DNA of 64,000 nt from Shinella curvata. GTDB lineage: Bacteria > Pseudomonadota > Alphaproteobacteria > Rhizobiales > Rhizobiaceae. Numbering within the stretch: position 1 is the first letter of the stretch; every line of letters starts with the position of its first letter. The stretch is taken from contig NZ_JALJCJ010000003.1 in the NCBI RefSeq assembly GCF_022899935.1, positions 1 to 64,000 of the forward strand, read 5' to 3'. The notes beneath the pieces were generated by a model. The model had not been told where the DNA came from. It ran no database searches and saw only the letters and a program-made list of their open reading frames with translations. Shown piece by piece: positions 975 to 57,962 of the stretch. The translations under genes and the position numbers were made by a program.

Positions 975-1142
975 TTATCGCGCCCGGCGGAACAGGCCCG
1001 CGACAAGCGACAGGACCAGAAGGGCCAGGAAGACGAAGAACAGGATCTGCGCAATACCGGCGGAAGCGCCGGCGATGCCGCCGAAGCCGAGCAGGCCGGC
1101 GACCAGAGCAATGACGAGAAAGACCACAGCATAGTAGAGCAT
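975..1142 (-). CDS. DUF1328 (YtjA-like) small membrane protein
   Basis: 55-residue protein starting [20 protein letters not shown]. It consists of two hydrophobic helices separated by a Gly/Ala turn ([11 protein letters not shown]) and ends FRRAR. Length and pattern match the DUF1328/YtjA family, small membrane proteins often induced by stress in alphaproteobacteria. The ATG at 1142 follows a good ribosome site (AAGGAG). An EcfG-type promoter lies just upstream (1173-1197), tying the gene to the NepR/PhyR stress response encoded 2 kb away. Molecular function is unknown. Confidence 0.85.
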
Positions 1143-1172
1143 TTTTGAACTCCTTCTTTATATCGCAGGAGA

Positions 1173-1197
1173 AACGGCCGGCGTTGAAAAAGGTTCC
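1173..1197 (-). promoter_or_regulatory. EcfG-type general stress promoter for DUF1328
   Basis: On the minus strand, GGAAC (1197-1193), a 16-base spacer, then CGTT (1176-1173). This matches the alphaproteobacterial EcfG/RpoE2 promoter (-35 GGAAC, -10 CGTT, 16-17 spacing) exactly and ends about 30 bases before the DUF1328 start codon. Use in vivo is inferred. Confidence 0.7.
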
Positions 1198-1252
1198 GGT
1201 TCGCCTGCGGTAAAGAAAGACATCGGCAGTGTTTTTTCTTCTTCACAAAACG

Positions 1253-1284
1253 ATACCGCCGCGGCCTTTCGGCTACGGCGGTAT
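1253..1284 (-). terminator. Hairpin terminator downstream of csbD-like gene
   Basis: A 9-bp stem (1253-1261 with 1276-1284) around a GC-rich loop. On the minus strand it is followed by CGTTTTG. It lies about 30 bases past the CsbD-family stop codon. Confidence 0.65.
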
Positions 1285-1314
1285 GAGCGGAGATTTACGC
1301 GGTTGGCGGCCTGC

Positions 1315-1512
1315 CTAGTGGCGGCGCTCCCAGTCGTCGATCTGCCGCTCGGCCTCCTCCTTGGCGAGGCCGTAACGCTGCTGAATCTTGCCCGAAAGCT
1401 CGACCCGGCGACCGTTGATCACGTCGAGATCGTCATCGGTGAGCTTGCCCCACTGAGCCTGGGCCTTGCCCTTGTATTCATTCCACTTGCCTTCGATGAT
1501 GTCCCAATTCAT
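1315..1512 (-). CDS. CsbD family stress protein
   Basis: 65-residue soluble protein beginning [18 protein letters not shown], with the WGKLTDDDL and GKIQQRYG motifs of the CsbD family, small proteins induced by general stress sigma factors. The ATG at 1512 has a GGACAG ribosome site upstream. The 170-residue reading frame that contains it is longer, but its upstream part matches nothing and overlaps the neighbouring gene. A GGAAC element sits 70 bases upstream (1561-1585). Together with the neighbouring genes this suggests control by the PhyR-NepR-EcfG pathway. Biochemical function is not established. Confidence 0.9.
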
Positions 1513-1560
1513 GTCGCTGTCCTTTCTGTTCGTTGAACGCGTGGCGTTGACGGTAAGAGA

Positions 1561-1585
1561 AATCCTGCACCCCGGGAAATGTTCC
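1561..1585 (-). promoter_or_regulatory. Possible EcfG-type promoter for csbD-like gene
   Basis: On the minus strand GGAAC (1585-1581) is followed after 18 bases by TT. This fits the loose S. meliloti RpoE2 consensus GGAAC-N18/19-TT, but the -10 reads GATT rather than CGTT. It overlaps a small hairpin (1560-1567 with 1585-1592) that may instead end the upstream gene. Confidence 0.4.
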
Positions 1586-1592
1586 AGGATTT

Positions 1593-1931
1593 TCAGTGCA
1601 GGCGCGCGGCAACCTCTGCCGGATGCGCATTTTCGGCGACGAGCATGCCATCCGCCGGAGGTGCAGTCTCGCGGATCTCGATCTCCAGCCCTTTTTCGCG
1701 GCTCATGCGCCAGCTGATCTCGACATCCTCCTCGACCCAGGCCGGATCGATGGCGGCACAGCGGGCATGCACAATGCGCCCCTTGGCGCCGGCCCCACCG
1801 AGTGCGACCGGCAGGGCGCCCACGCACTCTTCCATGGATTCGAAAGCGACCTGCGGCGCGGGAAGCTCCTCGCAGGAAAGGCTGCCGGCGTTGCAGCCGA
1901 TGAGAAGCATGAATGCGGCGATGTGTTCCAT
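1593..1931 (-). CDS. Small hypothetical lipoprotein-like protein
   Basis: 112-residue protein starting [13 protein letters not shown]. The ATG at 1931 has a strong GGGAGAG ribosome site and is preferred over upstream in-frame codons (frame open to 1961). Residues 10-13 (LIGC) fit a lipobox, but the N-terminus has almost no positive charge, so export is uncertain. Further cysteines follow at about residues 20 and 31 and in the middle (HARC). I do not recognise a domain. It is the next gene in the leftward stress-type series upstream of csbD, and a weak GGAAC element lies upstream. Confidence 0.6.
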
Positions 1932-1978
1932 TTCACTCTCCCTGATCATCGGTTTGCGCATGCATCTGACGGCCGGAA

Positions 1979-2004
1979 AATGGAGAGACAGGCAAAAAGG
2001 TTCC
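1979..2004 (-). promoter_or_regulatory. Weak EcfG-like promoter for the hypothetical lipoprotein
   Basis: GGAAC (2004-2000, minus strand) with TT after 19 bases. It fits only the permissive RpoE2 consensus. Recorded because every neighbour has a similar element. Confidence 0.3.
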
Positions 2005-2038
2005 GCCGGTGGCGAATGGCGCGCCTGTCACATTTTCG

Positions 2039-2063
2039 GGAACAAATTGCGCGCCGAACCGTT
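2039..2063 (+). promoter_or_regulatory. EcfG-type general stress promoter for DUF3309 gene
   Basis: GGAAC at 2039-2043, a 16-base spacer, CGTT at 2060-2063. This is an exact match to the EcfG consensus, 47 bases upstream of the DUF3309 start codon. It probably also drives the glycine-zipper lipoprotein gene 28 bases downstream of DUF3309. Confidence 0.7.
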
Positions 2064-2109
2064 TTCGGGCCATCGCTCGATTGCGAAGCGGACGTGAAAG
2101 GAAGCGCAG

Positions 2110-2265
2110 ATGCTCGGCACCATTCTTCTCATCATTCTCATCCTTCTCCTCGTCGGTGCGCTACCGAACTGGGGATACAGCCGGGGTTGGGGCTATGGCC
2201 CGTCGGGCGGGCTGGGCCTGATCGTCCTCATCCTCCTCGTCCTTGTCCTGATGGGACGCATCTGA
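2110..2265 (+). CDS. DUF3309 small membrane protein
   Basis: 51-residue protein beginning MLGTILLIILILLLVGALP, followed by NWGYSRGWGYGPSGG and a second hydrophobic stretch ending VLMGRI. This helix / Gly-Trp-Tyr-rich turn / helix pattern is characteristic of the DUF3309 family of small alphaproteobacterial membrane proteins. The ATG at 2110 follows AAAGGAAGCGC. It lies directly behind an exact EcfG-type promoter and 28 bases ahead of a lipoprotein gene, likely one transcript. Function unknown; stress membership is inferred from the promoter. Confidence 0.8.
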   Translation: MLGTILLIILILLLVGALPNWGYSRGWGYGPSGGLGLIVLILLVLVLMGRI

Positions 2266-2293
2266 CAACCAGAGCCAGCCAGGAGCCGGAACC

Positions 2294-2554
2294 ATGAAGA
2301 ACACCATCATCGCGCTTGCCCTCGTCGCGTCCACGGTGACGCTTACCGCGTGCAGCCAGACCGAACGCGGCACCGCGATCGGCGCAGCGTCCGGGGCGAT
2401 CATCGGCGGTGCCGTAACGGGCCGTGCAGGCGGAGCGCTCGTGGGTGCCGCCGTGGGCGGGGCCGCCGGGTACCTCATCGCCCGCTCGGATCGCAGTGGA
2501 TACTGCATCTACCGCGACCGTCATGGTCGCCGCTACGAGGCCCGTTGCCGTTAA
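2294..2554 (+). CDS. Glycine-zipper lipoprotein
   Basis: 86-residue lipoprotein. A signal peptide ends in the lipobox LTAC (Cys at residue 20). It is followed by a glycine-zipper segment (GTAIGAASGAIIGGAV through VGGAAGYL, residues about 28-65) of the kind found in 17-kDa surface antigen and OmpA-like envelope proteins. The tail (YCIYRDRHGRRYEARC) has two cysteines and a basic patch. It is probably anchored in the outer membrane. Start codon follows a GGAG site. It shares a transcript with DUF3309 and so probably an EcfG promoter. Confidence 0.8.
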   Translation: MKNTIIALALVASTVTLTACSQTERGTAIGAASGAIIGGAVTGRAGGALVGAAVGGAAGYLIARSDRSGYCIYRDRHGRRYEARCR

Positions 2555-2574
2555 CCGGTAAGGCATTGAAAAAC

Positions 2575-2600
2575 GAAACGGGCCTCCAGGCCCGTTTCTT
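2575..2600. terminator. Bidirectional terminator between lipoprotein gene and nepR
   Basis: A perfect 11-bp stem (2575-2585 with 2588-2598), 2-base loop, followed by TT and preceded by AAA. It sits between two convergent genes and can serve both. Confidence 0.8.
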
Positions 2601-2630
2601 CACGTTGTAGGCAGGGAATATCGAATGCGT

Positions 2631-2828
2631 TCAGGGATCGCCGCTGGCTTTCCGCTCGGCTTCATCGAGCTTTTCCAGGAGATCGAGCAGCCGATCCGGG
2701 ACGGGCTCGGTTTCGATGACGTCGTAGAAGGATTTCAGCTTCCGGCCAACCGGACCGTTCGGGTCAAAGGCAGCCTTGGCGGGGGCGTTGCCGCTGCCAC
2801 GTCTCTTGTCTTTGCTGGGCTCGATCAT
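2631..2828 (-). CDS. nepR: NepR family anti-sigma factor
   Basis: 65-residue anti-sigma factor that holds the general stress sigma factor EcfG inactive until phosphorylated PhyR sequesters it. The sequence contains the NepR core: GRKLKSFYDVIETEPVPDR, then LLDLLEKLDEAE. The N-terminal tail is basic and disordered. It is divergent from phyR, as expected, but no ecfG follows it: the next gene downstream is a convergent lipoprotein. S. meliloti has, as I recall, two NepR/PhyR pairs (RsiA1/RsiB1 beside rpoE2, and RsiA2/RsiB2 elsewhere); this locus resembles the second. A GGAAC-N18-TT element upstream (2925-2949) suggests autoregulation. Confidence 0.88.
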   Translation of the reverse strand: MIEPSKDKRRGSGNAPAKAAFDPNGPVGRKLKSFYDVIETEPVPDRLLDLLEKLDEAERKASGDP

Positions 2829-2924
2829 GCTCTTGTTTCCATCGCGTGCCGCCCGCTATCTTCCTTTTGCCCGAAATTCCCAATAGCAAGTCAGATTTAG
2901 CATGCTACCAATAGGTTTCCGCAC

Positions 2925-2949
2925 AATGAACTCTAGCGGAAACGGTTCC
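2925..2949 (-). promoter_or_regulatory. Possible EcfG-type promoter for nepR
   Basis: On the minus strand GGAAC (2949-2945), 16 bases, CATT (2928-2925), which is GGAAC-N18-TT. It lies about 100 bases upstream of the nepR start codon inside the divergent nepR-phyR region, next to a near-palindromic GGAAACGGTTCC (2938-2949). Confidence 0.5.
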
Positions 2950-2977: not shown

Positions 2978-3778
2978 ATGTCACTTTCCACCCGTATCGC
3001 ACCGCATCTCGCCTATCTCAGGCGTTTTTCCCGTGCCGTCACGGGATCCCAGACGTCCGGCGACGCTTATGTGGCCGCCATGCTGGAAGCGCTCGTTGCC
3101 GATATCTCGCTTTATCCGGCAGGGCGTAGCGACCGGATCGCGCTTTACAGGCTCTATTGCACACTCTTCGAGAACCTTGATGTGACACTGCCGGAAAACA
3201 CCTCGCCCTTCGGCTGGGAACGTCAGGCTGCCGCAAATCTCGCCAACCTGCCACCAGCCGAGCGCAAGGCCTTCCTGCTCGTTGCCGTCGAAGGATTCGA
3301 CATCGCCGAGGGCGCCGACATCCTCGATGTTTCGGAAGAGCATTTCGGCGAACTGCTCGATCAAGCTTCGCGCGACATTTCCAGCCAGGTCGCGACCGAT
3401 ATCATGATCATCGAGGACGAGCCGCTGATCGCCATGGACATCGAGGACATGGTGAAGGGTCTGGGTCACAATGTGACGGGCATCGCGCGCACCCACTCGG
3501 AGGCGGTCGAGCTTTACCACCGCACCGCGCCGCGCATGGTGCTGGCCGATATCCAGCTTGCCGATGGCTCGTCGGGCATCGATGCGGTCAACGACATCCT
3601 GAAGAACAGCACGATTCCGGTGATCTTCATCACCGCTTTCCCCGAGCGGCTCCTGACCGGCGAAAAGCCGGAACCCGCCTTCCTAGTCACCAAGCCGTTC
3701 AACCCCGATATGGTGAAGGCACTGATCAGTCAGGCGCTGTTCTTCGACGAACAGGCAAGGCTGGCAAAGTCCGCATAA
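2978..3778 (+). CDS. phyR: PhyR-type general stress response regulator
   Basis: 266-residue anti-anti-sigma response regulator. Residues 1-130 form the sigma-like domain that mimics EcfG and binds NepR. Residues 140-255 form a C-terminal receiver domain with acidic pocket E146/D147, phosphoacceptor D191 (LADIQLADG), T219 and K239 (TKPF). This reversed order is unique to PhyR. ATG 2978 is chosen because it has AGGGAG upstream and begins the conserved MSLSTRIAPHL; an in-frame codon at 2951 would add nine unmatched residues. Divergent from nepR, with its own terminator immediately after. It resembles the second S. meliloti PhyR (RsiB2). Confidence 0.92.
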   Translation: MSLSTRIAPHLAYLRRFSRAVTGSQTSGDAYVAAMLEALVADISLYPAGRSDRIALYRLYCTLFENLDVTLPENTSPFGWERQAAANLANLPPAERKAFLLVAVEGFDIAEGADILDVSEEHFGELLDQASRDISSQVATDIMIIEDEPLIAMDIEDMVKGLGHNVTGIARTHSEAVELYHRTAPRMVLADIQLADGSSGIDAVNDILKNSTIPVIFITAFPERLLTGEKPEPAFLVTKPFNPDMVKALISQALFFDEQARLAKSA

Positions 3779-57263: not shown

Positions 57264-57962
57264 ATGAGCGTGAATTTCCATGAATTCGAGGATGGTGTGG
57301 CGCTCGCCGAAGAGTTGGCGGACCGCGTGTCCGCGACGCTTTCCGACGCCATCTCTGCCCGTGGCACGGCAACCATCGCCGTGTCGGGCGGCTCGACGCC
57401 GAAGGCCTTCTTCAAGACGCTCTCGACCCGAGACATCGACTGGGCCAAGGTGACGGTCACGCTTGTCGACGAACGTTTCGTACCGGCCGACAATCCGCGC
57501 TCGAACCACCTGCTCGTTTGCGAGAACCTGCTTCAGAACAAGGCGAAAGCTGCGAATTTCCTTCCGCTCTACCGGGATGCCGGCAGCGCGGAAGAGGCTG
57601 CACAGATCGTCTCGGCCGATGCCGCTTCGCTCGGCGCGCCCTTCGATGTCGCGATCCTCGGCATGGGAACGGACGGGCATACGGCTTCGTTCTTCCCCCG
57701 GGGCAGCAATCTTGCGGAAGCGATCTCGGCCACTACACCGCGTGGCGTGATCACCATGGAAGCCGAGGGTGCCGGCGAAACCCGCCTCACCTTCACCTTT
57801 GCCAGCCTTCAGGATGCCCGCCTTCTGGTGCTGCATATCGAAGGCCAAGGCAAGAAGGACGTTCTGGCCGCCGCAGAAGCAGACGGCCCCGAAACCGACA
57901 TGCCGATCCGCGCCATTCTCCGGCGCGCGGCAACACCTGTCGATATCTACTGGGCACCCTAG
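57264..57962 (+). CDS. pgl: 6-phosphogluconolactonase
   Basis: 232-residue DevB-type lactonase producing 6-phosphogluconate. Motifs: AVSGGSTPKAFFKTLS near residue 38, VTLVDERFVPADNPRSNHLL near 70, and GMGTDGHTASFFP near 133 with the catalytic histidine. Starts 9 bases after the zwf stop. Its TAG stop codon is the first part of a palindromic repeat (57961-58009) that separates it from edd. Confidence 0.94.
   Translation: MSVNFHEFEDGVALAEELADRVSATLSDAISARGTATIAVSGGSTPKAFFKTLSTRDIDWAKVTVTLVDERFVPADNPRSNHLLVCENLLQNKAKAANFLPLYRDAGSAEEAAQIVSADAASLGAPFDVAILGMGTDGHTASFFPRGSNLAEAISATTPRGVITMEAEGAGETRLTFTFASLQDARLLVLHIEGQGKKDVLAAAEADGPETDMPIRAILRRAATPVDIYWAP

Follow-up and report, generated by a model that had tools for sequence, protein, structure and literature searches.

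A probable general stress response effector island beside a second, ecfG-less phyR-nepR pair in Shinella curvata

The first 64,000 nucleotides of Shinella curvata contig NZ_JALJCJ010000003.1 (assembly GCF_022899935.1; "the window" means this whole stretch) carry, near their left end, a cluster of very small genes next to a nepR-phyR pair. The genes are, from left to right, UPF0114, DUF1328, csbD and an unnamed gene on the minus strand, DUF3309 and a glycine-zipper gene on the plus strand, nepR on the minus strand and phyR on the plus strand. We conclude that this is very probably an effector island belonging to the general stress response (GSR) of alphaproteobacteria, located beside a second phyR-nepR pair that lacks ecfG and is of the rsiA2/rsiB2 type. 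There are four observations behind this conclusion: the gene content, the conserved promoter sequences, the presence of ecfG elsewhere in the genome, and the lack of such a promoter in front of the local phyR (phyR2). That tiny genes, most of them with EcfG-type promoters, are linked to nepR-phyR was already the view of the initial annotation of this DNA, and both the linkage and the promoters turn out to be conserved well beyond this genome.

Conserved promoters precede most of the small genes

EcfG1 of Rhizobium etli recognizes GGAAC-N16-CGTT (PMC3892343). Exact matches to this sequence had been described at 1173-1197 (minus strand), upstream of DUF1328, and at 2039-2063 (plus strand), upstream of DUF3309, and both are present; the second is the candidate promoter of DUF3309 and probably also of the lipoprotein-like glycine-zipper gene behind it. 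Three weaker elements had been proposed as well. All three exist, but their spacing and −10 sequences are better written as GGAAC-N16-GATT for csbD (1561-1585, minus strand), GGAAC-N17-CATT for the unnamed gene (1979-2004, minus strand, one mismatch off) and GGAAC-N16-CATT for nepR (2925-2949).

Comparison of orthologous upstream sequences is decisive where motif counting is uninformative, and it points to real EcfG promoters. In a set of 21 Shinella loci, with denominators giving the loci where the gene was found (a gene could go uncounted because its stretch was cut off, consisted of N at that point or did not carry it, these causes being pooled), an exact site precedes DUF1328 at 17/18 loci and DUF3309 at 18/18. 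Upstream of the unnamed gene, the site is exact at 10 of 13 loci and has at most one −10 mismatch at all 13. For csbD, GGAAC is present at 15/15 loci, and the −10 has drifted to GATT, GGTT, TGTT, GCTT or CCTT, such that 7/15 have at most one mismatch. Outside Shinella, many genera have an exact csbD site, and the Ensifer/Sinorhizobium loci lack the site. A wider set, consisting of 80 loci plus the window and the locus that holds ecfG in this genome, with upstream sequences deduplicated, has exact sites for DUF1328 (46/47), DUF3309 (13/16), CsbD (18/30) and the unnamed gene (15/26). With 200 permuted motifs, the corresponding means (and maxima) are 0.24 (10), 0.04 (5), 0.04 (2) and 0.09 (2). 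The negative controls in this set have no exact sites (RidA 0/19, UPF0114 0/13), and the glycine-zipper gene has its own exact site in only 2/21 cases.

The pattern of conservation within the sites is also informative. Among distinct Shinella versions of the DUF1328 and DUF3309 elements, the −10 is 97%–100% identical and the inner spacer 38%–44% identical, in a comparison where the search pattern itself sets the −35 and no more than two −10 mismatches are allowed. Conserved boxes with diverged spacers thus support the predicted EcfG-type promoters of DUF1328, DUF3309 and the unnamed gene; the csbD element is best described as a putative site with a conserved −35 and a decayed −10. Of the five promoters originally proposed, these four hold in some form, and the nepR element is unsupported by its footprint.

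ecfG is located elsewhere, and phyR2 lacks an EcfG-type promoter

The initial annotation placed the small genes next to the regulator that controls them. The nepR and phyR genes are indeed adjacent, but two features were overlooked: ecfG is absent, and phyR is free of the element. No ecfG lies next to nepR2 in the window; the DUF3309-lipoprotein genes are behind nepR2 instead. In the genome searched (6.07 Mb in 19 contigs, the window being the start of contig C13), ecfG is on contig C11 (G000:C11:1252455-1253006) beside nepR1 and phyR1, and it is the sole gene that matches EcfG at E 1e-40 or better. Hence, the locus is not the self-contained regulator locus that had been assumed. The genome has two nepR genes above the cut-off and two PhyR proteins, PhyR1 being 53% identical to PhyR2, and two PhyR are found in all 21 Shinella genomes searched. 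Across 61 genomes of the family, one per genus, the same 51 carry NepR, PhyR and EcfG, and 7 of those 51 have two PhyR.

What happens to the promoters where phyR and ecfG are apart? Upstream sequences were pooled from all loci, including the window and the C11 locus (one genome may occur twice), and loci with ecfG within 8 kb were classed as linked; upstream sequences of <120 nt or with >5 N were dropped, and near-copies were removed. Because some Shinella stretches stop ~3 kb upstream, an ecfG farther out on that side would escape notice in them. A site with at most one −10 mismatch precedes phyR at 91/93 linked loci (77 exact) and at 0/29 unlinked loci, a difference that represents one or few events rather than 29 because those unlinked phyR that are in the PhyR tree form one group. 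For nepR, the figures are 80/103 linked (27 exact) and 3/23 unlinked (0 exact; the window is among the three). The neighboring genes keep theirs: DUF1328 has such a site at 40/40 linked and 38/38 unlinked loci, and the unnamed gene at 37/38 and 26/26. CsbD falls from 17/17 linked to 15/29 unlinked, and the controls in this pool have none (RidA 0/29, UPF0114 0/17). Because the score filter left three DUF3309 rows, DUF3309 is judged from the Shinella and wider-set counts instead. Unlinked phyR occur in Shinella, Mycoplana, Xaviernesmea, Pararhizobium, R. giardinii, Ensifer/Sinorhizobium and further relatives.

Loci of the Agrobacterium/Allorhizobium type (L026, L032-L034, L044-L046, L059, L061, L079, L181 and L182) are split, with phyR ~4–7 kb from a nepR-ecfG unit that includes DUF1328, and they often carry a second nepR beside phyR.

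It is unlikely that an EcfG-like extracytoplasmic function (ECF) sigma factor other than the one adjacent to nepR1 reads the promoters in the window. The genome does have 24 Sigma70_r2 matches, several ECF genes match the PhyR_sigma2 model, and R. etli has a second EcfG with its own regulon (PMC3892343), but only the C11 gene reaches the E-value given above, and genera that have just one close EcfG retain these sites too.

The element before nepR2 is better read as a putative phyR2 leader

The GGAAC-N16-CATT element on the nepR side behaves differently from the small-gene promoters. In nine distinct Shinella versions that bear GGAAC, identity is 92% in the inner spacer and 76% in the −10, which varies among CATT, CATG, CACT and CATC. 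Exact EcfG-type sites are found upstream of 0/21 phyR2 and 0/20 nepR2 genes in Shinella, and 7/20 nepR2 upstream sequences have at most one −10 mismatch. An EcfG promoter for nepR2 was dropped as a candidate on the grounds that the spacer is conserved and the −10 variable. The GGAAC assigned to nepR falls within a block (2925-2959, no strand assigned) that directly precedes the phyR start and is conserved across almost all Shinella leaders; its 15-mer GGAAACGGTTCCGAT is intact in 18/21 Shinella loci. We therefore read this block as a putative phyR2 leader and not as an EcfG promoter. The in-frame ATG at 2951 was ruled out as the phyR start because the alignment shows a stop codon between 2951 and 2978 in several Shinella species. 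Positions 2925-2977, conserved ahead of phyR2, hold GGAAAC/GGTTCC/GGAAC repeats, which could be an operator or a leader structure.

These data bear on a further alternative, in which the locus is a self-contained module where EcfG also reads nepR locally and thereby creates negative feedback. The one-mismatch nepR element and the 7/20 Shinella upstream sequences are what this would lead one to expect. We nevertheless regard it as quite improbable: the nepR spacer is conserved and the −10 is not, unlinked nepR upstream sequences include no exact sites, the locus has no ecfG, and rsiA2 of Sinorhizobium meliloti has been reported to be independent of RpoE2 (PMC4814048), in agreement with 5′ rapid amplification of cDNA ends in that species (PMC3616915).

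Proposed mechanism and the evidence against it

How would an island without its own ecfG be controlled? For the partner switch, the kinase and expression, we infer the steps from established work on the family. Stress would lead a histidine kinase to phosphorylate PhyR, and phosphorylated PhyR would bind NepR, releasing EcfG, whose own locus is on a different contig. Released EcfG would read GGAAC-N16/17-CGTT promoters and drive DUF1328, DUF3309, the glycine-zipper gene that follows it and the unnamed gene, with a weaker action on csbD. EcfG probably does not read nepR2 and phyR2, which would act on the same switch in trans. The functions of the small proteins, and binding and expression at this locus, are likewise predictions.

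Several points weigh against an EcfG-driven island with a promoter-free phyR2. First, the bare motif is at chance level. The genome-wide scan for GGAAC-N16/17-CGTT that had been suggested gives no enrichment (113 matches, compared with 110 for a reversed-pattern control), and the window has three matches to GGAAC-N15..19-CGTT against a shuffle mean of 2.43; since these counts match the controls, motif counting alone was discarded as promoter evidence. Second, csbD has no exact site in Shinella (0/15). Third, the absence of sites before unlinked phyR may trace to one or a few events. Fourth, the 5′ region of S. meliloti rsiB2 (SMc00794) rose on rpoE2 overexpression, without a matching rise in its coding region (PMC3616915), so some influence of EcfG on phyR2 is possible. 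The finding of two exact matches inside 1975 bp has a Poisson probability of ~7e-4 at the genome density, calculated post hoc. The third exact match in the window, GGAAC-N17-CGTT at 57666-57691, is within a 232-codon open reading frame (ORF) at 57264-57962 and is probably due to chance. The counts alone would suggest that a GC-rich genome has produced all of these elements by chance. For DUF1328, DUF3309 and the unnamed gene this is hardly credible, given that the boxes, the strand and how far they lie from the start codon are conserved while spacers have diverged, both within Shinella and across genera.

What are the implications of an EcfG-driven effector island beside a second phyR-nepR pair? 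First, a group of tiny unknown genes becomes a conserved, testable GSR output set in the alphaproteobacteria. Second, one uncharacterized family closely tied to phyR stands out for experiment. Third, a phyR that is parted from ecfG has no feedback promoter while its neighbors keep theirs, which makes it possible to test what autoregulation does and what the second pair is for.

History of the locus

A tree of 53 PhyR proteins was built with a mixture model and an outgroup of Devosiaceae plus two others. Sixteen PhyR from loci without ecfG, including that of the window and those of Sinorhizobium/Ensifer (S. meliloti is absent from the tree), cluster together with support of 94/85, which is below the level starred by the tool. 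Next to this cluster are the ecfG-linked PhyR from Hoeflea and from a relative (92/89, also below the star). Two PhyR labelled ecfG-less (L115 and L124) fall in the Agrobacterium clade, and their ecfG is ~6–7 kb away. PhyR1 of Shinella and its kin is inside the ecfG-linked Ensifer/Rhizobium clade (99/98, starred), with a stem of 1.71 changes per site that makes its exact position unsure. Forcing PhyR1 together with the ecfG-less copies is mildly rejected (approximately unbiased test, p-AU 0.038). A basal placement of PhyR1 in a quick tree was dropped because of a long-branch warning and because the mixture-model tree moved PhyR1.

PhyR1 (G000:C11:1253379-1254170; L101:7380-8171) is strongly diverged, and the EcfG adjoining it is ~84%–91% identical to that of several related genera. 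Identity between PhyR1 and PhyR2 is 39% in the sigma-like domain and 70% in the receiver.

The gene order beyond phyR suggests which neighborhood is older. DUF1328, the unnamed gene and CsbD are found there in 5/6 Hoeflea loci, the sixth stretch being short, whereas in Rhizobium and Ensifer the ecfG-linked loci of the set have no DUF1328, unnamed gene or CsbD within 6 kb. From this contrast, it appears that the window keeps an older neighborhood from which ecfG has been lost.

An unnamed four-cysteine family tied to phyR

The unnamed gene (1593-1931, minus strand) encodes 112 amino acids from the ATG at 1931. A longer start, giving 122 amino acids, was discarded because the −10 would end 2–5 nt before it in several genomes and because 29/35 aligned members begin with MEH. 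Four cysteines are invariant across the 35 aligned members; M1 is invariant too, partly by construction, since the start codon was chosen near that position. The protein has no match in Pfam, NCBIfam or PADLOC, and a homologue gave a single unrelated match at E 0.11. The hydrophobic N-terminus before C13 resembles a lipobox, but it is short and without a basic residue. The AlphaFold2 model has a mean confidence (pLDDT) of 75.3 and a predicted template modeling score (pTM) of 0.63, with residues 92-112 below 50. None of the 241 matches listed by Foldseek against the PDB is at E 0.001 or better, the best VIA-align match is BioW at Z 4.0, in a range that the tool flags as possibly uninformative, and the best E in a PDB sequence search is 0.51. 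Overall, the model is of moderate quality, with no clear structural match on which to assign a fold.

Profile searches of the 61 genera find the family in 38, all of which bear PhyR (51 genera have PhyR and 10 do not). The nearest copy is ≤3.4 kb from phyR in 34 of these 38 and unlinked in four (G018, G054, G056 and G059). Some genomes have further weak, unlinked matches, and remote unlinked relatives may be under-detected with a profile built from phyR-adjacent members. In a draw of 101 genomes of the order, six match the profile, three of them within the Rhizobiaceae. A set of 28 further loci, which overlaps the 80-locus set by at least one locus, was used for the upstream region: 20/28 have an exact site and 27/28 at most one −10 mismatch, whereas permuted motifs average 0.05 and 0.61, with maxima of 4 and 13.

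A four-cysteine family that is linked to phyR and matched by neither Pfam nor NCBIfam is, with respect to the open-licence literature, new here. S. meliloti SMc00800 as a possible counterpart could not be confirmed; it is annotated as hypothetical and shares a table with SMc00885 and with SMc00796, annotated as DUF1328 (PMC6637203), and SMc00885 is an RpoE2 target (PMC6180224). In Brucella, two small hypothetical genes lie beside phyK (PMC12354254), and the GSR locus has two kinase genes (PMC4438053). It is conceivable that the protein is a so far unrecognized core part of the Rhizobiaceae GSR, either a thiol-based modulator of PhyR-NepR-EcfG or the most faithfully linked effector, its gene staying within ~3 kb of phyR and behind an EcfG promoter through several locus arrangements, also after ecfG left, and that PhyR2 rather than the fast-evolving, ecfG-linked PhyR1 is the main conserved input in Shinella. 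This is a tentative suggestion that we consider rather doubtful.

Gene identities and surroundings

The remaining genes were identified mainly by Pfam. DUF1328 (975-1142, minus strand) encodes a small membrane-type protein of 55 amino acids (PF07043, 57.9 bits, cut-off 27), and csbD (1315-1512, minus strand) a protein of 65 amino acids (PF05532, 69.2 bits, cut-off 40). DUF3309 (2110-2265, plus strand; 51 amino acids; PF11752, 80.9 bits, cut-off 22.3) is followed after 28 nt by the glycine-zipper lipoprotein-like gene (2294-2554, plus strand; 86 amino acids; PF13441, 34.5 bits, cut-off 28.9). The latter product scores 25.5 bits against the NCBIfam OsmB equivalog, below the cut-off of 98, and is therefore only OsmB-like. 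The anti-sigma factor gene nepR2 (2631-2828, minus strand) belongs to the NepR family by Pfam (PF18557, 48.3 bits, cut-off 25.7), and its product is below the NCBIfam anti-sigma-T equivalog (26.4 bits, cut-off 100). The ecfG-less copy phyR2 (2978-3778, plus strand) encodes 266 amino acids with the sigma-like domain and receiver of a PhyR: Pfam PhyR_sigma2, PhyR_sigma-like and Response_reg are above cut-off, as is NCBIfam PhyR (373.5 bits, cut-off 240). Its nearest named relatives are six Shinella records at 93%–96% identity. UPF0114 is above its Pfam cut-off, and beyond phyR2 are RidA and then gluconate kinase, both named from their ORFs.

A second DUF1328 gene is present in the genome (G000:C11:868789-868905; L208). 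Several draft Shinella contigs stop ~2–3 kb upstream of phyR2, which suggests a repeat there. An Rfam search of three other Shinella loci (L193, L195 and L206) gave no matches, so the contig ends are not explained by anything in those stretches.

Comparison with known systems

The small proteins had been described as having no known function, and this needs qualification. In Salmonella, the CsbD-like YjbJ, the DUF1328 protein YtjA and OsmB are among the small genes controlled by RpoS (PMC5437024), and in Sphingopyxis the GSR targets csbD directly (PMC7083833). The likeness to the Salmonella set is that CsbD, DUF1328 and a glycine-zipper lipoprotein come under a general stress sigma factor; the difference is that the sigma factor is unrelated, and the available excerpts of PMC5437024 contain no linkage to a regulator.

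PhyR, NepR and EcfG are usually encoded in one locus, with paralogues elsewhere (PMC4814048). The window resembles such canonical loci in its divergent nepR and phyR and, when compared with Hoeflea, in having DUF1328, the unnamed gene and CsbD near phyR. It differs in lacking ecfG and an EcfG-type promoter before phyR2.

The closest known parallel is rsiA2-rsiB2 of S. meliloti (SMc04884/SMc00794), where each RsiA binds RpoE2 as well as both RsiB, the two RsiB are redundant, and RpoE2 does not regulate rsiA2; the purpose of the second pair was called unknown in the same paper (PMC4814048). rsiA2 has also been termed an orphan (PMC6180224), although a review places RsiA2 in the rpoE2 operon (PMC8103513), contrary to PMC3616915. 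As in Shinella, a second nepR-phyR pair is located away from ecfG, and the first pair is with ecfG. The resemblance extends to the neighborhood: related Ensifer/Sinorhizobium loci in the compared set share UPF0114, DUF1328, CsbD, the unnamed gene and a glycine zipper, with not all of them at each locus. Shinella is distinguished by also having DUF3309 and by the strong divergence of its ecfG-linked PhyR1.

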